Under the pieces are notes generated by a model. That model worked only from the letters and a program-made list of their open reading frames with translations, made no database searches and was not told the DNA's origin. From assembly GCF_001983955.1 (NCBI RefSeq), contig NZ_CP019562.1:434001-498000 (forward strand): a stretch of DNA of 64,000 nt, written 5' to 3'. Origin of the DNA: Streptococcus oralis (GTDB taxonomy: Bacteria; Bacillota; Bacilli; Lactobacillales; Streptococcaceae). Below, one piece after another: positions 4,863 through 19,406 of the stretch (the stretch's first letter is position 1; every line of letters begins with the position of its first letter). The position numbers and the translations under genes were made by a program.

Positions 4863-4994
4863 GTAAACTCCTCATAGATAGTATGATTCTACTATACCAT
4901 ATTTTATAGAGAAAAACTATCTAGATTATCTGACTGGAGAAATAAGTGTGGTAAAATGAGAATAAGAAAATGACGGTATAGAATGAGGGGTATC

Positions 4995-7628
4995 ATGTTA
5001 GGTTTAAACTTTAAAGGAAGCTGGCGCCAATATCAAAAACAGGTCTTGGATCGTTTTCAGGACTATCAAGCAGACGGTCATGTTCATCTAGTGGCTGCTC
5101 CAGGGTCTGGAAAGACAACCATTGGTATCGAGCTAATCGCTCGTTTTGGCAATCCAGCCCTTGTCTTGGTTCCAACTGTCACCATTCGTGAACAATGGGT
5201 GGACAGGATTCAAACAGCCTTTTTAGAGAACGAACAGAAGATTTCAGATCTCGTTTCCCAAAACTTAAAGGAGATGAAAGCATTAACGATTGTGACCTAT
5301 CAGGCTTTTCATAGTGCCATGAACCAACTGCAATCACAAGAAGATGGTGAAGCAGAGGATTTTGTGGGATTTGATTTGCTTGCAAGTCTAAGAACTCAGA
5401 AAGTTGCGACTCTTTGCTTGGACGAATGCCACCACCTGCGCAATGAATGGTGGAAAAGTCTGGAAGCCTTTCGCAAGCAGTATGAACCGCTGAAACTCAT
5501 CTCCCTGACAGCGACACCACCTTATGACAGCGAGCCTGAACTCTGGGAACGCTATATCCGTATGTGTGGGGAGATCGATCAAGAAATAACAGTACCTGAA
5601 CTAGTAAAGGAAGACACTCTTTGCCCTCATCAGGATTTTGTCTATATGTGTTCACCAACAGCTGAAGAGGCGGAACGTCTCAAACGGTTTGAGGAGACTA
5701 AGTGGGACTATATTCATCACCTTATAGTCGATTCTGATTTTCAAACATTTGTAGCAGGGTCTAAGGTTCTCAAAGGGGATATTTCATCTGATTTGCTCTT
5801 AGAAGATCCCAAGTACTTGTCCGCTATATTGATTTATATGCATTCTCAGGGGTTAACGATTCCTCCCTCTTTGCAAAATTTACTGGGAACCCATAAGCTT
5901 CCAGCATTGACCTCCTACTGGCTGGAGACGCTGTTGCAGAGCATACTCTATCAGACACCAGATTGGTATGAGGATCCAGATGGATATAGGAAAAAGTTAG
6001 AGGCTGACTTGAAGGCGCGTGGCTTGGTGGAAAAACGTCAGGTTTATCTACTTAAGTCCAAGGCTTCTGACCAGCTTTTAACCCAATCTCTGGGGAAGTT
6101 GTCTGCCATTGTCGATATCTTTTTGACGGAGTATGAGAGTCTAGGTCAGGAACTGAGACAGTTAGTACTAGCTGACTATATTCGCAAGGATTTTGCTACC
6201 TATCTGGGAGATAATCAGGCAACCATTTCTCAGTTGGGGGTTCTCCCTTATTTTGAAAGCATTCGTCGAAAAGCTCAGGAGCAAGAGATCCCTATATCTT
6301 TGGCTGTCTTGTCAGGTAGTGTCGTTATTTTGCCTACCGATGTGGTAGCAGAGTTGAAGGAACTCTTGCCTCAGGTTCCTCTTAGTTTCTCATCTATTGG
6401 TCACTTGGATCCAAAAGATTATGTGCAGGTTGGTTTTCCTAGCTCAGCTAAGGGAATCGTAGCGGCAGTGACGGAGCTTTTTCAACGAGGGCAGATTCAA
6501 GTCCTAGTCGGAACCAAATCCCTCCTCGGAGAGGGTTGGGATGCTCCTTGTATTAATTCCCTAATACTCGGAAGCTTTGTGGGGAGCTTTATGCTAAGTA
6601 ACCAGATGCGCGGGCGTGCCATTCGTATCTGGCCGGGGCATCCAGAAAAGACCAGCAACATCTGGCATCTGGTAGCCGTTCAAGCGCAAGCACTTATCAC
6701 TCTTCCTGGTGAGGAGCCTAGACCAGAGAGCAATCAGGATCTGCAGACCTTGTCGCGACGGATGGAGCATTTTCTTGGATTGGCTTATAATCAGGAGAGT
6801 ATTGAGACCGGTTTAGATCGTTTGGATTTTCCAAAGCCCCCTTTTAAGAAAAAGCAAATTAGTGAGTACAATGAGCGAGTTAAGAGTCTCTCCAAGGATC
6901 GAGCAGGCTTGAGAAAAAAATGGCAGGAAGCTCTTGTTGTAGCGGATCAATTTGAGATAGTTACAGAAGTCGCAACCCAAAAACAGAAGATCCCAGTCAT
7001 GCTCTTGCTTGATGCATTAAAATGGGTTCGCATGTCATTGCTCTTGTTGGCAGTGGATTTGTTGGTTTTGCTATTTAGACTGAGACTAATCGGTGTTTGG
7101 TGGCTTACGACAGCCTGTCTCCTATTTTTGGCCTTTGCATCTTGGCGCTACCTCCGCTATAAGAGTCCTTATAAACGTTTGCAGTCTCTGGGTGAGCAGA
7201 TCCGAAAGGCTCTGCTAGATTCGGGGCATCTAACGGACGATCAATCCCGTGTTCAGGTAGAGGAGGACAAGGAAAACTACATGGTCTTTGCCTATCTCAA
7301 GGGAGGAAGCATGAGGGACAAGGAGCTGTTTGCGCAGACTGTGGGAGAGTTCTTTGCTCCAGTGGATAACCAGCGCTATCTCTTGAAGGCAGAGAAAGTC
7401 CGACAAGGTCAGTCACCTTACTATGCCGTGCCTAGTCTTTTTGACAAGCGCAAGGAAGAAGCACAGAAATTCCTCGACTTTCTGAGGCCAACTATTGGAC
7501 GTTATCACCTCGTCTATACACGAACAGAGGCCGGGCGGAAAATTCTTCTCGAAGCTCGTATCAAAGCTCTCTCCAATAAAAATGACCGTACCTTGACTAA
7601 GAAGAAGGTTAAAAGTCAGTTGGAGTAG
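4995..7628 (+). CDS. Superfamily 2 DEAD/DEAH-type helicase with two C-terminal membrane segments
   Basis: 877-residue protein from ATG 4995 (GAGGGG at 4985-4990; ATG 4983 is an alternative start). Helicase motifs are complete: motif I APGSGKTT (about residues 35-42), motif II DECHH (143), motif III SLTATPP (170), and motif VI QMRGRAIR (about 537) preceded by GTKSLLGEGWDAP. Two hydrophobic segments follow (about 678-700 and 704-720), starting MSLLLLAVDLLVLLF and VWWLTTACLLFLAF, with a soluble C-terminal part of about 150 residues. No nuclease motif was recognised. Base composition is like the neighbouring core genes, unlike the AT-rich genes at 12.4-16.1 kb. It lies directly upstream of the type I restriction operon but has its own end and spacing. 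An ATP-dependent translocase held at the membrane is inferred; its substrate is unknown. Confidence 0.8.
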   Translation: MLGLNFKGSWRQYQKQVLDRFQDYQADGHVHLVAAPGSGKTTIGIELIARFGNPALVLVPTVTIREQWVDRIQTAFLENEQKISDLVSQNLKEMKALTIVTYQAFHSAMNQLQSQEDGEAEDFVGFDLLASLRTQKVATLCLDECHHLRNEWWKSLEAFRKQYEPLKLISLTATPPYDSEPELWERYIRMCGEIDQEITVPELVKEDTLCPHQDFVYMCSPTAEEAERLKRFEETKWDYIHHLIVDSDFQTFVAGSKVLKGDISSDLLLEDPKYLSAILIYMHSQGLTIPPSLQNLLGTHKLPALTSYWLETLLQSILYQTPDWYEDPDGYRKKLEADLKARGLVEKRQVYLLKSKASDQLLTQSLGKLSAIVDIFLTEYESLGQELRQLVLADYIRKDFATYLGDNQATISQLGVLPYFESIRRKAQEQEIPISLAVLSGSVVILPTDVVAELKELLPQVPLSFSSIGHLDPKDYVQVGFPSSAKGIVAAVTELFQRGQIQVLVGTKSLLGEGWDAPCINSLILGSFVGSFMLSNQMRGRAIRIWPGHPEKTSNIWHLVAVQAQALITLPGEEPRPESNQDLQTLSRRMEHFLGLAYNQESIETGLDRLDFPKPPFKKKQISEYNERVKSLSKDRAGLRKKWQEALVVADQFEIVTEVATQKQKIPVMLLLDALKWVRMSLLLLAVDLLVLLFRLRLIGVWWLTTACLLFLAFASWRYLRYKSPYKRLQSLGEQIRKALLDSGHLTDDQSRVQVEEDKENYMVFAYLKGGSMRDKELFAQTVGEFFAPVDNQRYLLKAEKVRQGQSPYYAVPSLFDKRKEEAQKFLDFLRPTIGRYHLVYTRTEAGRKILLEARIKALSNKNDRTLTKKKVKSQLE

Positions 7629-7656
7629 GAGCGTATGGGAAAATCCATCTGAAACA

Positions 7657-7665
7657 TGATATAAT
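7657..7665 (+). promoter_or_regulatory. Extended -10 promoter of the hsd operon
   Basis: TG-A-TATAAT sits 95 bases before the hsdR start, with no clear -35. It is the only good promoter seen between the helicase and the terminator at 16210, so it probably drives all five genes hsdR to the membrane-protein gene. Confidence 0.6.
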
Positions 7666-7759
7666 AATAGAGAAAATAAATTTTTAATAGTTGAAACAGT
7701 TGAATAGAATGAAGGTTTTAGAATAAACTATTCTTTAAAAGCATAAGAAAGGTTTTTTG

Positions 7760-10700
7760 ATGGCAAAGAAAAAAGATTTTTCTGAATTAACCAGGGTACA
7801 AATTCCAGCAGCTCTACACCTTATGAGACTGGGCTATACCTATCTTCCCCGTAATGGGAAGGAGATTGCAGAACGAGATCCAGATACCAATATCCTCGTA
7901 TCTGTTTTTAAGGAGCAATTTTTAAAATTTAACAACTACCTGACAGAGGAAGACTTTGAGAGAGAATTGGCCAATATCAAGTTGGAACTAGATCAAAATG
8001 ACTTGGGACGTTCTTTCTTTAGACGCCTGCAAGGTCAAGAAGATACCGTTTATATTGACTGGGAAAACCCTGAAGCCAATACTTTTCATCTAGCGCTTGA
8101 AGTCACTTGTAAAAATGGCCAGGATGAATTCCGTCCTGACATTGTCGTATTTATCAATGGTCTGCCTCTTTCTTATATCGAAGTGAAACAGCCAAATGCG
8201 ATTCGAGATGGGAAAACAGGAATTCAGTCGGAGCAAGACCGAACTAGACAACGCTTTGAAAATCGCAAGTTCCGCCGCTTTAACAATATCACCCAGTTGA
8301 TAGCTCTGTCTGATAACTTGCCCTATATCAGTGGGCAAGGTCAACAGAAACAGGGCTCTTACTACGGTTCAAATGCCTATTCAAAAACTAAGTTTAATGC
8401 TTTCAAGGAAGAAAGAGAAGAAGATTTTCTTCATTCCTTGGCAACCTTAACAGAGGATCAAATCGACTTCGTTTTAGATGACATGAACCACTTTGCCCTC
8501 AAGTCCCAGCCAGAATTCAAAACAAACCTAAATCCTGACACACCTTGTAATGCCTTTCTGTCCTCCTTGTATCATAAAGAACGCCTGCTCTTTATGCTTC
8601 GTTTTGGACTTGTCTATGTAGAGGAAGAGAGCAAGGATGGTCAGATGCAACTGCAGAAGCACGTCATGCGCTACCCTCAGTATTTTGCGACGCGTGCCAT
8701 TGAAGAAACAATTGCAAGAGGTGTTAAGAAGGGCATTATCTGGCATACACAAGGTTCAGGGAAGACAGCCTTGGCTTTCTTCAATATCCGCTATCTAACC
8801 AATTATTTCTCAAAACAGGGAATCGTCCCTCAGTTTTACTTTGTTGTGGATCGTTTGGATCTGGCAGACCAAGCCTTTAAAGAATTTACCAAACGAGGGC
8901 TCAAAGTTAAGCGAATCAACAGCCCTCAAGAGCTCAATCAAAAACAAGATGGCTATGATGTTGCTGTGGTCAATATCCAGAAGTTCAAGGATAATTCAGA
9001 CTTGACTGACCGCTCTGGTTATGACCTCCATCGTCAAAATATCTATTTTATCGATGAAGCCCATCGCTCTTATAATGAACGCGGTTCCTACCTACCAAAT
9101 CTCTATCAGGCAGATACCAATGCAATCAAGATTGCTTTGACTGGGACCCCATTGATCACCTATAAGAAAGATGGCAAGACCAAGGAAAATCATGCGACCA
9201 CACGTGATATTTTTGGGGACTATATCCACAAATACTACTACAACCAGTCTATCGATGATGGCTTTACCCTACGTTTGATGCGAGAAGATATCGAGACTTC
9301 TTATAAAGACAATCTCAGATCCATCAATGAAGAGATCCAACGTGGAGGCTTATCCAAGGAGGATATCTTTGCTCACCCTCGTTATGTAGAACCTATGTTA
9401 GACTTTATCATCGAGGACTTTAATCGTGCACGTGATGTAATTTTTGATGATCAGACGATTGGTGGCATGATCGTCTGTGACTCGTCAAAGCAGGCGCGTG
9501 AGCTTGAAAAGCAATTGGAAAAACGTCGTAAAGCTGGAACAATCAACTTGACATCCGCATTGATTCTCCATGATGAGGGAGATAAGGAAGAAAAGAAAGA
9601 CAAGGTAGATGCTTACAAAGAAGGCAAAATTGACCTTATCATCGTCTACTCCATGCTCTTGACAGGTTTTGATGCCCCGCGTCTCAAACGTCTCTACCTA
9701 GGGCGTAAAATCAAGGCTCATAACCTTTTACAGACTCTAACCCGTGTCAATCGTCCATACAAGGACTATCTCTTTGGCTATGTCATCGACTTTGCGGATA
9801 TTTCGAAAGAGTTTGACAGGACCAATCGTGCCTATCTGGAAGAACTCAATCAAGAGTATGATACAGCCTTGACAGGGGAAAATGGAGAGGATGTTTTTGG
9901 CTCGCTCTTTGTCCCTGCAGACGAGATTTCTCATGAATTAAGCAAGACTGAGCTAATCTTGCTTGACTATCCAACAGATAATCTGGAATACTTTTCCCAA
10001 GCTATCAATGATATCAAGGATAGAAAGCAGTTAATCGATCTACGAAAAGCTTTGGAGTCTATCAAGCAGTATTACAATATTGCTCGTCTCCTTGGTTACC
10101 ATCAATTGATCGAGCAGATTGACATTGCTCAGGTCGCAATCTTGCTCAATATCCTCTCAAGACGGATGCTGACACTGTCCTTGATTGATAAACCAGCTGA
10201 CTTTTCTAGTCAAACGCTCTTAAATTTAGCGATGTCTGAGACCAGTTTTAGTTTTGTCAAGATTGCAGAGGAAGAACTTCGTCTAGCAGCTAATGACCTG
10301 GAGGATTGGAGACGTCGGGTAGCTGGTAAGATTAAAAAACAGCGTGATGAAAAGGATCCTGAGTGGGTTTCTCTCTACGAAGAATTCCAACGTATCATGC
10401 AAAAACATTTTATCTATAGCCAAGAAGGTTATACGATGGAAAATATCAAGGAAACACAAAAAGACTATGAGGAACTCTTTAAGTCCGTGGAAAACTATCA
10501 TACTCGTATGAGACGCTTGACCATGAACTTTAACGGAGATGAAATGGCAGCTCGTTCCTACAAGCACGTGACCAACTCAACGACGGTCAGTGAGTTTCTT
10601 GCAATTTACTATGTCATCAAAGATTCTAAAGTCAGACTAGATCATAAAATAGGTCAAAACCAAGGAATATTAGAAAATGAAGGATATTTAAAAAGATTGA

Positions 10701-10816
10701 TTGAAGAAGAAATCACACATGGAGTCTTGGATAGTCAACCTGATAAAAGATTATCAATGCAAGATGTTGATCGTGTGGTTGAATCATTGTTTGAAGAATA
10801 TGAACGGGAGTATTAA
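7760..10816 (+). CDS. hsdR: Type I restriction enzyme, HsdR motor/endonuclease subunit
   Basis: Cleaving and ATP-dependent translocating subunit of a type I restriction-modification complex. It has 1,018 residues, normal for HsdR. The N-terminal PD-(D/E)xK nuclease is visible as D127 and E141-V-K143 (RPDIVVF...IEVKQ). Walker A is TQGSGKT with K335, the DEAH box is D432-E-A-H435, and motif III is ALTGTP. The C-terminal helical domain carries many charged residues and contacts HsdM. ATG 7760 follows AAGAAAGG; a TTG at 7757 is in frame but closer. hsdM starts 5 bp after the stop. The subunit is intact, so the system looks functional. Confidence 0.96.
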   Translation: MAKKKDFSELTRVQIPAALHLMRLGYTYLPRNGKEIAERDPDTNILVSVFKEQFLKFNNYLTEEDFERELANIKLELDQNDLGRSFFRRLQGQEDTVYIDWENPEANTFHLALEVTCKNGQDEFRPDIVVFINGLPLSYIEVKQPNAIRDGKTGIQSEQDRTRQRFENRKFRRFNNITQLIALSDNLPYISGQGQQKQGSYYGSNAYSKTKFNAFKEEREEDFLHSLATLTEDQIDFVLDDMNHFALKSQPEFKTNLNPDTPCNAFLSSLYHKERLLFMLRFGLVYVEEESKDGQMQLQKHVMRYPQYFATRAIEETIARGVKKGIIWHTQGSGKTALAFFNIRYLTNYFSKQGIVPQFYFVVDRLDLADQAFKEFTKRGLKVKRINSPQELNQKQDGYDVAVVNIQKFKDNSDLTDRSGYDLHRQNIYFIDEAHRSYNERGSYLPNLYQADTNAIKIALTGTPLITYKKDGKTKENHATTRDIFGDYIHKYYYNQSIDDGFTLRLMREDIETSYKDNLRSINEEIQRGGLSKEDIFAHPRYVEPMLDFIIEDFNRARDVIFDDQTIGGMIVCDSSKQARELEKQLEKRRKAGTINLTSALILHDEGDKEEKKDKVDAYKEGKIDLIIVYSMLLTGFDAPRLKRLYLGRKIKAHNLLQTLTRVNRPYKDYLFGYVIDFADISKEFDRTNRAYLEELNQEYDTALTGENGEDVFGSLFVPADEISHELSKTELILLDYPTDNLEYFSQAINDIKDRKQLIDLRKALESIKQYYNIARLLGYHQLIEQIDIAQVAILLNILSRRMLTLSLIDKPADFSSQTLLNLAMSETSFSFVKIAEEELRLAANDLEDWRRRVAGKIKKQRDEKDPEWVSLYEEFQRIMQKHFIYSQEGYTMENIKETQKDYEELFKSVENYHTRMRRLTMNFNGDEMAARSYKHVTNSTTVSEFLAIYYVIKDSKVRLDHKIGQNQGILENEGYLKRLIEEEITHGVLDSQPDKRLSMQDVDRVVESLFEEYEREY

Positions 10817-10821
10817 CTTTT

Positions 10822-12426
10822 ATGAGTGAAACATTTAAATCTCAAATTAAAGACTTAGTAGATGATTTGAAGGCTGTTTTTACGCATGTTGGATTAGGTG
10901 GAGAAGCAGCTGAATATAAACTTCTTACCCAATCTTTCCTCTATAAGTTTTTAAACGACAAATTTTTATATCAGGCAAAAGCTATTGATGCTTCTAATAG
11001 TTATGAAAAACTAATTGATATGAGTGAAGAAGATTATTCTTGGCTTCTAAAATTTATCGGTACCAGCACGGCTTGGCTCAAGCCAGACCAGTTGATTGAA
11101 ACGCTTCACCGTCAGCAAAATGAAGCGACTTTCTACGAGACTTTTGAAAATACCCTCAACCAGATCGCCATTGATAATAACGATATCTTCTCTGTTCATA
11201 CAGACGGAGATACGGCTATTCGTCTCTTTGACGAGCGTCTGATTACCGATAACATATCAGATAGCAGTAAGCGTAATGAAGTCGCAAAAGCCATCATTAA
11301 TCTCCTTACTCGAGTGAAGTTCGATGAGACTATCTTTTCACAAGGTTTCGACTTTTTCTCTACCCTCTTTGAGTACATGATCAAGGACTACAACAAAGAT
11401 GGCGGTGGTAAGTACGCTGAGTACTACACACCTCACTCTGTGGCAAAGATTATCGCTGATATCCTTGTGGGAAACGACCAACCATCAAACGTGCGGATCT
11501 ATGACCCGTCAGCTGGTTCGGGAACCTTGCTAATGAATCTGGCTAGTCGTATCGGTGTGGACAAGACCACTGTCTATAGTCAGGATATCTCGCAAAAATC
11601 ATCTAATCTTCTCCGTCTTAATCTAATTTTGAATGGACTGCAACATTCCATCCATAATATCGTACAGGGAAATACCATCATCGCCAACCGTCATCCTGAA
11701 AAAATGGACTATATCGTTTCCAACCCTCCTTTTAAGCTGGACTTTTCAGAGTGGCGTGACCAAGTAGAGACATTGCCAGAAGCCAGTGAGCGTTTCTTTG
11801 CAGGAGTGCCAAAGGTTCCAGCCAAGTCTAAGGACAAGATGGCGATTTACGAGCTCTTTGTACAGCATATCATCTACTCCTTGAAGTCAGACGGTCAAGC
11901 AGCCGTTGTCTTGCCGACAGGATTTATCACTGCCCAGTCAGGGATTGATAAGGCCATCCGTCAACACTTGGTGGACAATCAAATGCTGGCTGGTGTCGTT
12001 TCCATGCCGTCTAATATCTTTGCGACGACAGGTACCAACGTCTCTATCCTCTTTATCGATAAGAAAAATAAGGGTGATGTCGTCCTCATCGATGCCTCAA
12101 ATCTCGGAACCAAGGTCAAGGAAGGCAAGAACCAAAAGACCGTGCTCTCTCCTGAAGAAGAGCAGAAGATCGTCGAGACCTTTATCAAGAAAGAAGCCGT
12201 CGAGGACTTTTCAGTCACTGTCTCTTATGAGGATATCAAGGAGAAAAACTACTCTCTCAGCGCAGGACAATACTTTGACATCAAGATAGACTATGTGGAT
12301 ATCACAGCAGAAGAGTTTGAAGCCAAGATGACCGCCTTTCAAAACAAGCTCTCAGACCTTTTCCAGCAATCGCATGCATTGGAGCAGGAGATTGAAGAGC
12401 AGATGAAGAGGGTTAAGTATGAGTAG
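10822..12426 (+). CDS. hsdM: Type I DNA methyltransferase, HsdM subunit
   Basis: N6-adenine methyltransferase subunit (534 residues) that, with HsdS, modifies the host recognition sites. The HsdM N-terminal helical domain comes first. The SAM-binding motif I is DPSAGSGTLL (D228) and the catalytic motif IV is NPPF (N301-F304). It begins 5 bp after hsdR and its last 8 bases overlap hsdS, so translation of M and S is probably coupled. No truncation or frameshift seen. Confidence 0.96.
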   Translation: MSETFKSQIKDLVDDLKAVFTHVGLGGEAAEYKLLTQSFLYKFLNDKFLYQAKAIDASNSYEKLIDMSEEDYSWLLKFIGTSTAWLKPDQLIETLHRQQNEATFYETFENTLNQIAIDNNDIFSVHTDGDTAIRLFDERLITDNISDSSKRNEVAKAIINLLTRVKFDETIFSQGFDFFSTLFEYMIKDYNKDGGGKYAEYYTPHSVAKIIADILVGNDQPSNVRIYDPSAGSGTLLMNLASRIGVDKTTVYSQDISQKSSNLLRLNLILNGLQHSIHNIVQGNTIIANRHPEKMDYIVSNPPFKLDFSEWRDQVETLPEASERFFAGVPKVPAKSKDKMAIYELFVQHIIYSLKSDGQAAVVLPTGFITAQSGIDKAIRQHLVDNQMLAGVVSMPSNIFATTGTNVSILFIDKKNKGDVVLIDASNLGTKVKEGKNQKTVLSPEEEQKIVETFIKKEAVEDFSVTVSYEDIKEKNYSLSAGQYFDIKIDYVDITAEEFEAKMTAFQNKLSDLFQQSHALEQEIEEQMKRVKYE

Positions 12427-13639
12427 TATAAGACTAGGGGAGATTGGAAAAATCTCAATGTGTAAGAGAATATTGAAATCTCAGACAAATGAATTTTCAG
12501 GTATCCCTTTTTATAAAATCTCAACGTTTGGTGGTACTCCGACAGTATATATTGATGAAAAGGTTTATCGTGAATACAAAGAAAAATATTCATATCCTAA
12601 AAAAGGTGATATTTTAATTTCTGCTGCAGGAACAATTGGAAAAACAGTAATATTTGATGGAGAAGATTCTTATTTTCAGGATTCCAATATAGTATGGATA
12701 GAAAATGATGAATCAAAGGTAACAAATCAGTTTCTGTATTATTTTTTACAAACAAATCCTTTTATTACCACAAATGGAAGTACCATAAAAAGATTATATA
12801 ACGATAATTTAAGAGATACTAAGATATCAAATGTTCCTTCAATCCAACAACAAAATCAAATAACAGATATTTTGGGTACTTTAGATAAAAAAATCCAAAC
12901 CAACAACCAAATCAACCAAGAGTTGGAAGCCATGGCTAAAACCCTCTATGACTACTGGTTTGTGCAGTTTGATTTCCCAGACCAGAATGGAAAACCCTAC
13001 AAATCATCAGGCGGAAAAATGGTCTATAACCCAGAACTTAAACGCGAAATCCCAGAGGGATGGGAAGTGGAGACTCTTAAAGACTTTGAGTCGAAAATTA
13101 TTACTGGAAAAACACCTTCTAGAGCAAATAGTGATAATTTTGGAGGTGAAGTTCCTTTTATAACAATTGGAGATATACGAGGAAATACTTTTATTTATAG
13201 CACTTCAGAAACATTGACTGATTTAGGAGCAAGCGTACAACAGAATAAGTATTTACCTGAGGGTAGCTTATGTGTTTCTTGTATTGCGACAGTGGGTGAA
13301 ATTGGATTTACTACTGAATGGTCTCATACAAATCAACAAATAAATTCAATTGTTTTTGAGGATGAAACGAATAGATATTATCTTTATTTTGCGTTGAAAA
13401 ATTATTTTGAAAATGCTAATGCGAGTGCAAAGACTGGAAATACTTTTGCTAATATGAATAAAGAAGATTTTTCAGGAATTAGAATCATTCTACCAAGAAA
13501 TGAAATCAAAAATAATTTTCACAAAATAACAGAGCTTTATTTTGCACAAATCAAATGTTTACAAGGACAAAACCAAGAACTCACCCAACTTCGTGATTGG
13601 CTCTTGCCAATGCTGATGAATGGGCAGGTGAAGGTATAA
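12419..13639 (+). CDS. hsdS: Type I restriction specificity subunit HsdS
   Basis: DNA-recognition subunit of 406 residues. Two target recognition domains are evident: TRD1 at about residues 1-145 (AAGTIGKT, IPSIQQQNQI-type ending) and TRD2 at about 220-365 (KIITGKTPSRANSDNFGGEVPF...). They are separated by a conserved helical region (LDKKIQTNNQINQELEAMAKTLYDYWFVQFDFP). A second conserved helix ends in LRDWLLPMLMNGQ. The TRD-coding parts are visibly AT-richer than the conserved parts, the usual sign of TRD exchange. ATG 12419 overlaps the hsdM end. Only one hsdS and no recombinase gene are present in this window. The target sequence cannot be predicted. Confidence 0.95.
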   Translation: MSSIRLGEIGKISMCKRILKSQTNEFSGIPFYKISTFGGTPTVYIDEKVYREYKEKYSYPKKGDILISAAGTIGKTVIFDGEDSYFQDSNIVWIENDESKVTNQFLYYFLQTNPFITTNGSTIKRLYNDNLRDTKISNVPSIQQQNQITDILGTLDKKIQTNNQINQELEAMAKTLYDYWFVQFDFPDQNGKPYKSSGGKMVYNPELKREIPEGWEVETLKDFESKIITGKTPSRANSDNFGGEVPFITIGDIRGNTFIYSTSETLTDLGASVQQNKYLPEGSLCVSCIATVGEIGFTTEWSHTNQQINSIVFEDETNRYYLYFALKNYFENANASAKTGNTFANMNKEDFSGIRIILPRNEIKNNFHKITELYFAQIKCLQGQNQELTQLRDWLLPMLMNGQVKV

Positions 13640-13657
13640 AATTCAGGAGATAATGAG

Positions 13658-14731
13658 ATGGAAAAAAGATTAAGATTGTTTCATTTTTCAAGAGAAAATG
13701 AAAATGTTAATGTAGTATCAGGGAGAATCTTCGAATCAAGCTTAATTGATTTTAAAGAAGAATTCGATAAAATTATTGCTGATTTAGACACACGAGTTGA
13801 AAAATGTATGGATGATAAATTTGCAAAAAATTTTAGATTTAATCGAAGAACATCTCAAATGGTTACAAATATTTCTGAGATGTTTGATAGTCGTGATAAA
13901 TTTAAGTCAAATTCAGATGATATTGCAAGTAAGTTTAAGGATGCAATAGGTAAACAATTCCAGAATGATTTCTATCTAGTAGTACTAACCACTATGCTAA
14001 ATAATAGTGAGGTGCTTTTTATAGTAAAAATGGAGACAGGAACTGCTATACAAGTTACGAACGAAAATACTTTAAAAACACTTGATAGAATTTTACCTGA
14101 TAAAAAATCTAGGCTTCAGAAAGCTACTGTAATATTCAAAGATAGAACTATTTCGTTTAAAGAAGGAAGAGAAGCAAGCAACACAGAAAGAGAGAATATT
14201 CATTCAAGGGTATTAGATAGGACTGATGATAATATTTCTCGTTACTTCTTTAAAGAGTTTTTGGAAAGTACAAATGTCATTGATGATCCCGATTCAGCAG
14301 CTAAAGCAGCTATAGAAGCAGTAGAAATTGTTTCAAAGCCATATTTAAAGGACGATAAATCATCAAATGATGTCAAAGAAAGATTGCAAAGCTTTTTGTC
14401 TCAAAAACGTGATACATCTTTTGATGGCTTAATTGGAGAAATCAGTACTTTACTTGATTTTACGAAAACAGGAATCAATATGGATTCTGAAAAACTAGCT
14501 AAAGAAGCATATCAAAATGCTAAAAAAAGAAATAATACAGTTGTATTTACTTTTACAGCCGAGCTAAAGACCCCACCAAGAACAGTGTATGTTTCTAAGA
14601 ATAATAATAAAGAATTAGAGATTAGAGTTTTCGATAGTTTATTGGAACAGGGAGATGTTGTGTGGGATCAGGAAGGTAATTTTTCAATAATGAAGATAAA
14701 TACAAATAGGATCACTATAGCAAAGAGGTGA
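13658..14731 (+). CDS. NA37/YejK-like nucleoid-associated protein (putative), AT-rich operon gene
   Basis: 357-residue soluble, highly charged protein with no signal peptide or membrane segment. Residues about 104-165 (FYLVVLTTMLNNSEVLF... then LQKATVIF) and about 192-205 (ISRYFFKEFLEST) resemble the NA37 core pattern, in which a hydrophobic strand pair is followed by KAARI-like and YFREFLGC-like motifs. This family match is by eye and moderate. It begins 18 bp after hsdS with AGGAGA before ATG and no promoter, so it is read from the hsd operon. Its stop TGA lies in the ribosome binding site of the next gene. The DNA is clearly AT-richer than hsdR, suggesting separate acquisition. A DNA- or nucleoid-sensing role is inferred from the family and context only. 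Confidence 0.6.
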   Translation: MEKRLRLFHFSRENENVNVVSGRIFESSLIDFKEEFDKIIADLDTRVEKCMDDKFAKNFRFNRRTSQMVTNISEMFDSRDKFKSNSDDIASKFKDAIGKQFQNDFYLVVLTTMLNNSEVLFIVKMETGTAIQVTNENTLKTLDRILPDKKSRLQKATVIFKDRTISFKEGREASNTERENIHSRVLDRTDDNISRYFFKEFLESTNVIDDPDSAAKAAIEAVEIVSKPYLKDDKSSNDVKERLQSFLSQKRDTSFDGLIGEISTLLDFTKTGINMDSEKLAKEAYQNAKKRNNTVVFTFTAELKTPPRTVYVSKNNNKELEIRVFDSLLEQGDVVWDQEGNFSIMKINTNRITIAKR

Positions 14732-14736
14732 TTGTT

Positions 14737-16125
14737 ATGTATAGTCAAATTTTCTCTTGGATTCAAAATTATCATGAGCAAGAGAGTTGGTTTAATATTT
14801 TTGAAAAGAAGAATACATTTAAATATAATATCAAGTTTATAGTTTATCAAGAAGAAGTTGAAAAATTTAAACATGATTTTTCATTATCCTTACCGCAGAA
14901 TATATTTGTTGGATGTAACTCTTATACTCTAGATCAATTTCAAGACCCTGAAAGTGAAAATAATATTATTCTTACTATCGAACAAAACTTAGTTCCTGAA
15001 AAAAATAAAAAGTTATTTTTTTATTCAGAAAAAGATTTTCTTGAATTCGAAAAAGAGTTTTTAAAAAAAATTGCAATTAAAGATTTTAAAAATAGAGAAA
15101 GTAAAATTAAAGTGGATGTTTTTGAAAAAGGTATCGAAATTATTTCTCCGATATTCTCTCAAAAAAACGAAGAATTACTGATTCCTAAAATTCTTCTTTC
15201 TAAATCAGAATTTAATCATGTTAAAATATGTGCTTTACCAAATGTAATTACTAATATTAACTACGAAGATTGTAAAAAAGTATCATTAATTAATTTATTG
15301 GATTTGCTATCTGAACGAATGATTTCTGATAACGGAGAAAATACTGAATTTGTAATTAGTTTTGAAAAAAATGCAATCTTAAAATTAGATGATGTTAGTG
15401 TAACAGAAAAATTTTTTAAAAATTTTGAAAATATTTTTGACTTTATTTTTAGTGATGATAAAACCTACTATGAGAAGTTAATTATTTTTAGAGGACTCTT
15501 TTCAGATTTAGTAAATAATAAATTAAAAATAGATGATAAAGACATAGGGATAACCTGGAAAAAATTAAAAATTAATTACAATTTATTTATAAAAGATAAG
15601 TTAAAAAAATATATTGATGATAAGAAAAAAATTACAGAAGACTTTACAAATCTGCAAAGGAAAACTTCTGATAGTATAAAAATTGTATCAAATTCATTAT
15701 TGCAACAAATTTTAGTTTTGATAGCAACAGTTTTAACAACTTTTATTCTTAAAAATTTTTCTACTAGAATAGCGATGCTATTAACCCTTATTGTTGGATT
15801 ATTGTATTTGATTCTTATTATAAGAATTAACTGTTTAAAAGGATGGCATTTTGAATCCAAATCTATTGAATTAGAATATAAGAAAATAGATAACATGTAT
15901 AGTATTTTTTATAATGTTGAAGAAGATTATTTTAATAAGTTAAAGCAAGATTATAAAGAAAAAATGGATGATTTAATACAGGTCGAAAAATGGAGCCATA
16001 AAATTGTAAACTTAATCACAGTTTTAGTTGCTTTTTCTATATTATTTGTTTATTTACATCCATGTTTGTACACTCATTGTGAATTTTATAAGAATATAGT
16101 TGATTTCTTTATTCAACGTTTTTGA
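14737..16125 (+). CDS. Unrecognised protein with three C-terminal transmembrane helices
   Basis: Family not recognised. From ATG 14737 (AGAGGTGA at 14724-14731) it has 462 residues; GTG 14728, overlapping the previous stop as GTGA, is an alternative start. The first 320 residues are soluble, Lys/Asn/Ile-rich and end in a Lys-rich helical segment (KDKLKKYIDDKKKITEDF). Two adjacent membrane helices follow (about 324-340 and 344-362), then a charged, coiled-coil-like loop (about 365-420), and a third helix (about 422-442, IVNLITVLVAFSILFVYL). Composition is extreme: 13 G/C in the 60 bases 15601-15660. It ends the hsd operon, about 85 bases before a terminator. Coupling to the NA37-like gene suggests that the two proteins work together, possibly as sensor and membrane effector; that is inference. 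Confidence 0.7.
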   Translation: MYSQIFSWIQNYHEQESWFNIFEKKNTFKYNIKFIVYQEEVEKFKHDFSLSLPQNIFVGCNSYTLDQFQDPESENNIILTIEQNLVPEKNKKLFFYSEKDFLEFEKEFLKKIAIKDFKNRESKIKVDVFEKGIEIISPIFSQKNEELLIPKILLSKSEFNHVKICALPNVITNINYEDCKKVSLINLLDLLSERMISDNGENTEFVISFEKNAILKLDDVSVTEKFFKNFENIFDFIFSDDKTYYEKLIIFRGLFSDLVNNKLKIDDKDIGITWKKLKINYNLFIKDKLKKYIDDKKKITEDFTNLQRKTSDSIKIVSNSLLQQILVLIATVLTTFILKNFSTRIAMLLTLIVGLLYLILIIRINCLKGWHFESKSIELEYKKIDNMYSIFYNVEEDYFNKLKQDYKEKMDDLIQVEKWSHKIVNLITVLVAFSILFVYLHPCLYTHCEFYKNIVDFFIQRF

Positions 16126-16209
16126 ATCAATAAGCCTATTTAAATTCTGAATATTTGTAAGTTGTTAAAAAAACATGATGTTTATATTTACTAAATACTA
16201 GCATATATC

Positions 16210-16239
16210 CCAGCCAAATCAACTTTTGGCTGGTTTTTA
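16210..16239 (+). terminator. Terminator of the hsd/defence operon
   Basis: CCAGCCAAA (16210-16218) pairs perfectly with TTTGGCTGG (16225-16233) around a 6-base loop, followed by TTTTTA. It separates the restriction operon from the toxin-antitoxin pair. Confidence 0.88.
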
Positions 16240-16250
16240 TTTTCTAAATA

Positions 16251-16283
16251 TGGTATAATTAAATTACCTAAAAGGTAATTTAA
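16251..16283 (+). promoter_or_regulatory. Promoter and perfect palindromic operator of the first HigBA pair
   Basis: TG-G-TATAAT (16251-16259) is an extended -10. Overlapping its 3' end is a perfect 10-bp inverted repeat, TTAAATTACC (16259-16268) and GGTAATTTAA (16274-16283), around TAAAA. This is the expected place for autorepression by the antitoxin, which has an N-terminal helix-turn-helix. Confidence 0.75.
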
Positions 16284-16301
16284 TATAACGGAAAGGGACA
16301 T

Positions 16302-16640
16302 ATGAAGCTTATCTATACAAACAAAACTGTTAAAAAGCAGTGCACAGAGCTGAGGCAGGCGAAGAAGGATTTTTCGGATAAGATTGCTGTAAAGTTGCAT
16401 CGGTTGATCAACTTTTTGGAAGCGGCGAATTCTTTGGCTAGTGTGACAGCTTTTCCTAAATATCACTTTCACCAACTTAAGGGAAAGAGACAGGGACAGT
16501 TTGCTTTAGATATAGATGGTCGAAGGAGTTCCTATCGGTTGATTGTGGGTTTTCGGGAAGAGGATCTAGAAAAGGTATTTCCTAGTTCTGTTGAAATCGA
16601 AATCCTAAAAATAGAGGAGGTCAGCAATCACTATGAGTAA
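16302..16640 (+). CDS. higB: RelE/HigB-family toxin
   Basis: 112-residue protein of the RelE/ParE fold, normal length for HigB. The pattern LRQAKKDFSDKIAVKLHRLINFLEAA is followed by FHQLKGKRQGQFALDIDGRRSSYRLIVGF, where the L-K-G and R-Y/S-x-R-L-I-V strands are typical of ribosome-dependent mRNA interferases. A ribosome binding site (GGAAAGGGA) precedes ATG. The end overlaps the antitoxin start by 8 bases. The toxin-first order is characteristic of higBA rather than relBE. Activity is not proven by sequence. Confidence 0.82.
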   Translation: MKLIYTNKTVKKQCTELRQAKKDFSDKIAVKLHRLINFLEAANSLASVTAFPKYHFHQLKGKRQGQFALDIDGRRSSYRLIVGFREEDLEKVFPSSVEIEILKIEEVSNHYE

Positions 16641-17718
16641 TAAAATTATTGAATACAAAGACCTGATTGCTTTTCATCCAGGTCAGTATGTTGAAGAGTT
16701 GATTGAAGATTATAACGTAACGCAGAAAGAATTTGCGGAGCGTCTAGGAGTTTCCGCAAAGACTATCAGCAAGCTGGTCAATGCAGAGGAGTCCATTAGT
16801 AAGGAAACGGCTCATAAGTTAGCCAAGCTAAGCGGAGTTTCTATGCAGACTTGGCTCAATCTTCAAAATGCTTATGATGTAAAAGTTGCAGAGATTGTAG
16901 AACAGAAAGAGCTAGAAGAAGGTAGCGAGAAAGAAATCTGTGAGATGATAGATTTCAAGTATTTTAAGGAAGAAGGCTACGTTCCAGACAAACGCTATAG
17001 CTTGAAGGAAAAGATTATTGAGCTTCGCAAGATTTTAGGTGTGGCAAGTTTAGAAAACCTTATAACTTTTAACCATTTAGTCAGCTATCGGAATACGCGT
17101 GAGTTTACAACTAAAAGTATAGTAAACTCTAATATCATGCTGGAGTTGGCATCTAAAAAAGCACGTGATACAACAACTACCAAGCTCAATCGTAGAAAGC
17201 TAGAGAGAAGCTTGCCTGCCTTGAGAGAGTTGACCAGACAGGACCCAGAAGCCTTTCCTCAACGCTTGTACGATATCTTGTTAGACTGTGGTATTGTTTT
17301 AGTTGGTCTACCTGCGTTACCAAATGCTAATCTGAATGGAGCGACTAAAAAATTCAGTAATGGTAGTGCCTTGCTTTTACTCACGGATCGAAACAAAGCG
17401 TCAGACATTTTCTGGTTCTCACTATTTCATGAGATTGGACACATTCTGGAGAATGATTTTTCATCTGATGAAGGAAACAGTGAGTCCTATCTTCGTTCTG
17501 AGGAACAGGCAGACCAGTTTGCAAAAGATCTATTGATTAGACCAGGAGACTATCAAGCTTTTGTCAAAAAAGGAAACTTTGCGAAGTCTGATATTCTTCG
17601 CTTTTCTGAGGAGATAGATATTCATCCGAGCGTTGTTTTAGGCAGATTACAAAATGAGGGTATTCTAGGTTTTGACCGTTTCAGAGAACTAAAAGAAAAT
17701 TATTACTTTGTTTCCTAA
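16633..17718 (+). CDS. higA: HigA-type antitoxin fused to an ImmA/IrrE-like metallopeptidase
   Basis: 361 residues, far longer than a plain HigA antitoxin (about 100). Residues 1-90 are an HTH_3/HigA domain (VTQKEFAERLGVSAKTISKLVNAEESISKETAHKLAKL, then MQTWLNLQ). The C-terminal part holds a zinc-peptidase motif FHEIGHIL with a downstream EEQADQFA that supplies the third ligand, as in the M78 ImmA/IrrE family. Start ATG 16633 overlaps higB by 8 bases and has GAGGAGG upstream. The likely role is repression of its own promoter and neutralisation of HigB. The peptidase may cleave the antitoxin or another repressor in response to stress; that is inference from ImmA. Confidence 0.85.
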   Translation: MSNKIIEYKDLIAFHPGQYVEELIEDYNVTQKEFAERLGVSAKTISKLVNAEESISKETAHKLAKLSGVSMQTWLNLQNAYDVKVAEIVEQKELEEGSEKEICEMIDFKYFKEEGYVPDKRYSLKEKIIELRKILGVASLENLITFNHLVSYRNTREFTTKSIVNSNIMLELASKKARDTTTTKLNRRKLERSLPALRELTRQDPEAFPQRLYDILLDCGIVLVGLPALPNANLNGATKKFSNGSALLLLTDRNKASDIFWFSLFHEIGHILENDFSSDEGNSESYLRSEEQADQFAKDLLIRPGDYQAFVKKGNFAKSDILRFSEEIDIHPSVVLGRLQNEGILGFDRFRELKENYYFVS

Positions 17719-18693: not shown

Positions 18694-18757
18694 ATGAGTA
18701 TTAGGATTTACTTTTAATAACTTTTAAGTTATAATTGAATTAGAAAGAGGTTGCTTG

Positions 18758-19123
18758 GTGCATACAATTTACTTCTATAAGGACAAAAATGGAAATGAGC
18801 CAGTCTTAGATTATATGAGAGAATTGGCTAGAAAGAAGAGTAAGGATAGTCGCATCAAACTCAATAAACTAAACGACTATATCGAGTTGCTTAGTCAGCA
18901 TGGGACTAGAGCTGGTGAACTCTATATCAAACATTTGGAAGATGAGATTTGGGAACTAAGACCTCTGAGGGATAGGATTTTATTTGTAGCGTGGCTTGAT
19001 GGGAGTTTTGTTCTCTTACATCATTTTGTCAAAAAGACTCAGAAAACTCCTAGGAGAGAGATTGATAAAGCCAAGCGTGAACTGAAGGACTTAAAAGAAA
19101 GAGGGTTAAGTGATGAAGAATAG
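18758..19123 (+). CDS. RelE/Gp49-like (HigB-type) toxin, GTG start
   Basis: About 121 residues of the phage-derived Gp49-like/RelE toxin family ([24 protein letters not shown]..., [39 protein letters not shown]). The [14 protein letters not shown] strand pair and the [11 protein letters not shown] motif are hallmarks. GTG 18758 has AGAGG seven bases upstream; TTG 18755 is also possible. The last 11 bases overlap the antitoxin gene. This is a second toxin-first module, of a different subfamily from the one at 16302. Confidence 0.85.
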
Positions 19124-19406
19124 TGCTATTGGGAGTAATTGGAAAGATGTCCGCTCTGAACTCTTCACCAAGGAGGAAATCCTTGAAAGTGATATGCGAG
19201 TGGCTATCATGAGTGAGTTGATTGAAGCCAGACACGAGCAAGGTATCAGTCAGAAAAAGCTAGAGGAACTCAGTGGAGTGAGCCAGCCTGTCATAGCTAG
19301 GATGGAGACAGGAAAGACTAGTCCTCAGTTGGATACGGTCTTAAAAGTCTTAGCCAGTTTAGGAAAGACACTAGCAGTCGTCCCACTTGAACAGGAAAAA
19401 AATTGA
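19113..19406 (+). CDS. XRE-family (HigA-type) antitoxin
   Basis: 97-residue protein with one helix-turn-helix in its C-terminal half ([57 protein letters not shown]). Unlike the antitoxin at 16633 it has no peptidase domain. ATG 19113 follows AGAGGGTT inside the toxin gene; GTG 19110 is an alternative. It should neutralise the toxin encoded at 18758 and repress the shared promoter. Confidence 0.87.

Follow-up and report, generated by a model that had tools for sequence, protein, structure and literature searches.

According to the excerpts of the cited articles on which this comparison draws, the Kiwa system consists of a membrane protein plus a DNA binder (PMC12904381), and Kiwa of Streptococcus thermophilus is active against phages (PMC11514479). 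Type I restriction-modification operons are described as carrying embedded defense genes, among them the phage-defense genes tgvAB (PMC11411939) and the defense gene prrC (PMC12707154). Nucleoid or DNA association is established for YejK and StaR, with YejK inhibiting gyrase and TopoIV (PMC10053502), and Escherichia coli gained protection against phage from a transcription unit that includes a YejK domain (PMC13092281, 2026). The subject here is a pair of genes of Streptococcus oralis, NA37L and MEMB, directly behind hsdS of a type I operon in a stretch of 64,000 nucleotides (contig NZ_CP019562.1, positions 434,001 to 498,000), termed the window, whose own numbering is used throughout unless a locus is named. 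NA37L is a divergent protein of the NA37/YejK fold, and MEMB has a large soluble part followed by three predicted C-terminal membrane helices. The two very probably constitute a defense module. In the preferred reading, given a rough probability of 0.55, they form one co-transcribed, portable anti-phage unit carried as slot cargo, in which NA37L would sense DNA and MEMB would attack the membrane.

The pair shares with Kiwa the two-gene logic of a membrane protein and a DNA-associated protein, and the membrane layouts differ, MEMB having 462 amino acids with a C-terminal three-helix part compared with a KwaA of about 190 amino acids (locus L067). NA37L has the NA37 fold where KwaB is a DUF4868 protein, the distinction from KwaB being one of sequence. 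The original prediction claimed no sequence likeness to Kiwa, and this holds, with KwaB scoring -10.3 bits against the NA37 profile and NA37L reaching an hhalign probability of 0.1 to true KwaB. As neither NA37L nor MEMB has a PADLOC match at E≤1 either, membership of the pair in Kiwa is rejected on sequence. KwaB is not among the 50 listed Foldseek or VIA matches of NA37L, which is uninformative by itself. Solved KwaA chains exist (9mrg), and no PDB chain matches the L067 KwaB sequence at E≤0.1. Like PrrC and TgvAB the pair is cargo within an hsd transcription unit, but hsdRMS does not accompany it at any of the 11 non-streptococcal loci viewed. The YejK-domain system of DefensePredictor is likewise a phage-protective YejK unit, from E. 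coli (PMC13092281). That YejK mention is the nearest literature match; a defense pair of NA37 plus a membrane protein was not found among the matches listed, bioRxiv and most subscription journals being outside the search.

An exchangeable slot behind hsdS

The HsdM of the window is detected at E≤1e-100 in 17 of 118 genomes of the genus, three of which carry the pair; 13 of the other 14 were fetched as sibling loci, leaving out G022, in which HsdM is in two pieces. In 8 of the 13 (L063, L064, L065, L067, L068, L070, L071 and L072) the nucleotide homology to the window ends at 13635-13643 and is back at 16205-16210, immediately ahead of the terminator and of the HigB/HigA-like genes. Both edges of the slot are retained, and what lies between them is exchanged, in several siblings for Kiwa or other defense families. 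From these contents it follows that the pair occupies a cassette slot common to defense systems, and the presence of Kiwa and other known systems at this place in sister operons gives the pair the appearance of a portable anti-phage cassette.

The L067 slot holds true Kiwa (KwaB 1.9e-173, KwaA 3.3e-79), and that of L072 holds a Kiwa whose proteins are 88% and 95% identical to those of L067. The cargo of L065 (6394-8020), a KwaA-like protein (PADLOC E 1.5e-10) with a 343-amino acid partner without a model match, is possibly a divergent Kiwa judging by its sequence. A PDC-S06 AAA_13/PrrC-like gene occupies the slot in L064 (6.3e-142, in two pieces). L068 carries a GmrSD_N protein that resembles NsnA (7e-54) and PD-T4-2_A (2.2e-29), together with a 283-amino acid protein. 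The slots of L070 (5507-6728, minus strand) and L071 (6359-7580) contain proteins of 277 and 137 amino acids that are 93% identical between the two loci, the smaller with four hydrophobic segments; the L070 pair has no PADLOC match and is a candidate undescribed system. Three small open reading frames (ORFs), one DUF4325 STAS-like, fill the slot of L063, a locus outside the PADLOC scan. Among the remaining siblings, L069 retains only the left edge, with a proteasome-like protein (9.6e-06) and without higB, L066 stops at a contig end, L075 has a 164-amino acid ORF, and L073 and L074 have no same-strand cargo adjoining hsdS. Slot cargo, measured in nine of the fetched loci, has a guanine-plus-cytosine (GC) content of 0.27-0.31.

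These cargoes bear on the reading of the pair as a toxin-antitoxin addiction unit that stabilizes its locus, with phage defense secondary or absent. Such a role would suit the tight coupling, low GC content, patchy distribution and mobile contexts of the pair and the combination of a soluble protein with what may be a membrane toxin. It is nevertheless very improbable, as NA37L and MEMB are both large, a HigBA-like pair already adjoins the streptococcal slot, and three other cargoes (L064, L067 and L068) strongly match PADLOC defense families.

Conservation and genomic settings of the pair

An NA37 gene and a MEMB-like gene co-occur across families, which bears out the conserved pair of the original prediction. 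Searches with NA37L find 3 of 147 genomes (G000, G035 and G074), 5 of 196 in the family and 8 of 395 in the order, together nine distinct genomes, and a MEMB-like neighbor is present in all nine, interrupted in G035 and chimeric in G591. The reciprocal MEMB searches find 5 of 197, 6 of 259 and 3 of 38 genomes, 12 of them distinct, with an NA37 gene directly upstream in 10 of the 12. G1082 is a weak case, with a 364-amino acid gene scoring 35.6 bits (bias 22.5) against the home-made NA37 profile and without a Pfam match, and G006 has a MEMB remnant of 96 positions with stops and no NA37 match within the surrounding 16 kb. Homologues in named species are mostly from oral streptococci. The pair is more than a chance arrangement because genomes of several families share its gene order and membrane layout. 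The identities of NA37L and of MEMB between loci are correlated (r=0.973 over 91 locus pairs, with 0 of 2000 permutations as high).

Two irregular loci are recorded separately. At L012:8040-8990 (G035, S. sanguinis SK1) the MEMB frame is interrupted and that of NA37L is open. At L025:7197-8729 (G591) the start of the NA37 gene and the end of the MEMB gene are in a single frame joined through SYTHLDVYKR, a peptide we take to be a common assembly or adapter artifact; for this reason a natural fusion is not claimed, the joint probably arising in assembly.

The pair directly follows hsdS in all six Streptococcus loci viewed (the window, SK1/G035, L011, L013, L014 and L018), and the genes flanking the operon differ among several of the six. 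This position agrees with a role as a PrrC-like restriction-modification accessory, kept inactive by HsdRMS and freed when a phage inhibits the complex, for which prrC (PMC12707154) and tgvAB (PMC11411939) are precedents in type I operons, as far as the excerpts go, and for which the PDC-S06/PrrC-like gene in the G161 slot is a further parallel. Outside the streptococci, however, relatives of the window's HsdR, HsdM and HsdS are absent from 11 of 11 pair loci (tblastn E≤1e-3, 11.7-19 kb each), and the cargoes of the one slot differ so widely that sharing it need not mean a functional link. Guardianship of restriction is therefore improbable, and the suggestion that the pair acts if restriction fails is not upheld as a rule.

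The expectation of a defense setting fares better, with defense families in the sibling slots and phage or defense genes at several other pair loci. Two of the 11 non-streptococcal loci are prophages. The L024 pair lies in prophage DNA, immediately behind an amidase gene and with a prophage tail gene close by, and is identical to the IMG/VR contig L059; that of L025 also follows an amidase gene near a phage tail gene. Transposase and Fic genes adjoin the pair in L026, a Dsr1-like SIR2 protein is encoded near it in L056 and a Mokosh-type MkoC (5.9e-293) in L090. The L087 pair lies beside a PDC-S73/TIR-like protein plus a methyltransferase, and those of L086 and L088 beside a lone HSDR_N protein, L086 also having a resolvase. 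Among viral contigs there is one matching contig, identical to the L024 prophage, and the P0100 query has no match among them.

The two proteins and their proposed roles

The by-eye likeness of NA37L to the NA37/YejK family is substantiated, as relatives of NA37L pass the PF04245 cut-off and NA37L itself has the computed YejK fold. In a scan of seven relatives P0016, P0089 and P0092 pass, and the other four have no PF04245 match; since NA37L has none either, it is called a divergent relative and not a curated member of the NA37/YejK/StaR nucleoid-associated proteins (PF04245), whose fold it shares and whose curated cut-off it misses. Judged by its modeled fold, NA37L is a putative nucleoid- or DNA-associated protein. 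No Pfam, NCBIfam or PADLOC model is convincing for NA37L or MEMB, and no nuclease domain is recognized in either by these scans. The hits dismissed are 7TMR-HDED for NA37L (Pfam E 0.0023, under the cut-off) and, for MEMB, BenE (Pfam E 0.16) and HgcA (NCBIfam E 0.043).

NA37L is an extra copy in its genome, where a separate PF04245 gene (G000:C1:930362-931294), likely StaR by its family, encodes a protein whose BLAST match to NA37L is not significant. Downstream of this gene is an ORF of 200 amino acids with one hydrophobic stretch, which is not MEMB-like. A PF04245 gene of another locus (L029:2499-3966) directly precedes one for a DNA topoisomerase (Topoisom_bac 3.4e-94), a neighborhood that agrees with the connection of StaR and YejK to topoisomerases.

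The predicted division of MEMB into a soluble part and three C-terminal helices is reproduced by hydropathy, with peaks at residues 320, 344 and 423 and no others at a threshold of 1.2. A homologue search returned 70 rows, including the window's own, among the 7996 best candidates scored. Profile comparison of MEMB gives hhalign probabilities of 92.8 with the L026 partner and 96.2 with the L025 partner; the L056 partner has the same layout and reaches only 16.2 alone and 1.7e-108 with alignment A5, in which it is itself a row. A CARF_TM match of the L026 partner (PADLOC E 0.0027) covers the membrane region alone and is dismissed. At the same hydropathy threshold the arrangement of a hairpin plus one helix is found in all 14 full-length pair loci, the starts of helices 1 and 2 being 20-32 residues apart and helix 3 starting 70-85 residues after helix 2, with one extra weak N-terminal hydrophobic peak in 6 of the 14. 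This layout would fit a cytoplasmic sensing or docking domain placed on a potentially membrane-disrupting anchor.

The direction of signaling is approached through the partners of other NA37 genes. In L057:5753-7807 and L058:6048-8041 an NA37 gene that passes the Pfam cut-off has a RelA_SpoT gene (4.9e-15 and 4.2e-21, respectively) directly behind it, the products of these RelA_SpoT genes matching PADLOC PDC-S33 and being putatively toxSAS-like. The adjacency of NA37 and RelA_SpoT genes recalls the RelA/SpoT-domain toxin pairs (toxSAS), whereas the partner in the window is a membrane protein and not alarmone-synthetase-like. In the orders of G853 and G821 there are no NA37-RelA/SpoT pairs beyond those already known, any PF04245 match being present in 1 of 13 and 1 of 20 genomes, respectively. 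As a side observation, a 1089-amino acid protein adjoining the L058 genes matches DRT-type PADLOC models (E 1.3e-27). With NA37 as the constant member and the partners exchangeable, NA37 is suggested to be the sensor or control element and MEMB the effector; an order of signaling from NA37L to MEMB is accordingly put forward tentatively, at a little under even odds.

The principal competing reading reverses these roles after the manner of Kiwa, with MEMB sensing phage attachment or injection at the membrane and NA37L acting as the effector, which would bind the incoming DNA and prevent it from being replicated or transcribed. The analogy with Kiwa drawn in the original prediction stands insofar as the slot holds real Kiwa in two of the sibling operons (L067 and L072) and the combination of membrane protein and DNA binder is that given for Kiwa in the excerpt of PMC12904381. 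MEMB also diverges faster than NA37L in streptococci (41% compared with 60% identity to L011), as a phage-exposed sensor might. Against this, NA37L has no sequence likeness to KwaB, the size and helix arrangement of MEMB are unlike those of KwaA, and the RelA/SpoT-like partners of other NA37 genes are more in keeping with a sensor or antitoxin than with an effector, which in the matter of roles points to the reverse of Kiwa. The Kiwa-like assignment is regarded as unlikely.

In the preferred reading, in which NA37L senses and MEMB executes, NA37L as a YejK-fold nucleoid- or DNA-associated protein would monitor DNA or its topology and control MEMB. The two-helix hairpin and the third helix would anchor MEMB, whose large N-terminal domain would lie on the cytoplasmic side and face NA37L. 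Infection would change the state of NA37L and thereby release or activate MEMB, which may then damage or depolarize the membrane and halt phage production; protection against phage by the pair would be the outcome.

Several observations weigh against this reading. Kiwa, in which a membrane lattice brings the DNA binder to injected phage DNA, works in the opposite direction to the order proposed, and the partner-swap argument consists of two NA37-RelA/SpoT loci. The window NA37L is below the curated cut-off of PF04245 with no match at E≤1. The MEMB model (m40cd28092bde) is moderate to poor, with a mean predicted local distance difference test (pLDDT) score of 64.8 and a weak middle (residues 141-223 below 50), and has no significant fold match. 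Shared descent adds to the co-divergence of the two proteins. No recognized defense gene or phage is near the pairs of L023, L085 and L089, the last of which adjoins a glycosyltransferase gene. To our knowledge the cargo families of L063 (DUF4325) and L069 (proteasome-like) are not known as defense genes. Searches of 50,697 phage and 72,556 plasmid records by tblastn (E≤1e-3) give no match to NA37L or MEMB, and the divergent L085 NA37 likewise has none in the phage and plasmid records at that threshold.

Host operon, neighboring genes and wider meaning

The features of the operon and slot are collected in Table 1. Both predicted ORFs are borne out, and the mechanical ORF start of MEMB, GTG 14728, is replaced by ATG 14737 as the likely start. 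The ATG of NA37L is 18 bases past the end of hsdS. The translational coupling noted earlier is plausible in the sequence, the NA37L stop codon TGA (14729-14731) being within a stretch usable as the ribosome-binding site of MEMB, and the AT-richness is clear from GC contents of 0.302 for NA37L and 0.222 for MEMB, the values for hsdM and the whole window being 0.427 and 0.41, respectively. The predicted lack of a promoter also agrees with the count of zero promoter-like matches in the gap between hsdS and NA37L. Over 7500-16500 on both strands there are 27 such matches, no excess over the 29.4 ± 5.3 of shuffled sequences, and the top plus-strand match (11 of 12) is inside the MEMB gene (14801-14829). 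No terminator-like site occurs from hsdS to the end of MEMB, and one on the plus strand follows it. The short gap, the uninterrupted run and the hairpin past MEMB place the pair inside the hsd transcription unit, and NA37L and MEMB are presumably co-transcribed.

Table 1. Positions in the window of the hsd operon, the NA37L-MEMB pair and the slot edges
Feature	Position	Strand	Basis or remark
hsdR, leading hsd gene of the operon	7757..10816	+	HSDR_N 1.4e-25, SWI2_SNF2 2.9e-42
hsdM	10822..12426	+	N6_Mtase 2e-66; PDLC03033 5.8e-265
hsdS	12419..13639	+	Methylase_S 2e-47
Conserved 3' end of hsdS, left slot edge	13568..13635	+	Last homologous block, 90-97% identity, 8 two-edged siblings
NA37L, 357 amino acids	13658..14731	+	Divergent NA37/YejK-fold protein; ribosome-binding stretch 13644-13649
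AAAGAGGTGA, likely ribosome-binding stretch of MEMB, holds NA37L stop	14722..14731	+	Sequence reading
MEMB, 462 amino acids	14737..16125	+	N-terminal ~317 residues soluble, then three C-terminal hydrophobic helices
Predicted transmembrane helix 1, residues 320-338	15694..15750	+	Hydropathy 2.1
Predicted transmembrane helix 2, residues 344-362	15766..15822	+	Hydropathy 2.6
Predicted transmembrane helix 3, residues 423-441	16003..16059	+	Hydropathy 2.3
Intrinsic-terminator-like hairpin, probable operon end and right slot edge	16210..16233	+	9-pair stem then TTTTTATTTT; sibling homology back at 16205-16210

Further genes of the window surround this operon. Beyond the slot (16302-17718) are a HigB-like gene and a gene for a 361-amino acid HigA protein. 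This HigA protein includes a peptidase M78 domain and matches PADLOC PD-Lambda-2_B (E 1e-26), and the two genes are possibly a further defense unit beside the slot. A small gene pair at 18755-19406 (122 and 98 amino acids) resembles by eye a RelE-type toxin and a helix-turn-helix antitoxin. On the 5' side of hsdR (4983-7628) is a gene for an 881-amino acid ResIII/DEAD helicase-like protein, partly like PADLOC PbeA (2.2e-15), which is also present upstream in L011.

The slot offers a test bed in which closely related hsdRM operons carry different cargo, one of them the well-studied Kiwa, and its unnamed cargo, such as the L070/L071 pair of 277- and 137-amino acid proteins, supplies a small set of additional candidate systems. 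A broader proposal, more tentative than the order of signaling, is that the NA37 family founded a modular class of immunity, in which a sensor of the nucleoid or of DNA topology is combined with interchangeable effectors, either a membrane killer of the hairpin-plus-one layout or RelA/SpoT-type enzymes, the membrane branch having entered the slot of streptococcal type I operons held in common with Kiwa, PDC-S06 and GmrSD-type systems. If the preferred reading is true, the sensing half of an immune system would come from a family known for housekeeping work in the nucleoid, which would suggest that bacteria read DNA topology or the state of the nucleoid as a sign of infection.

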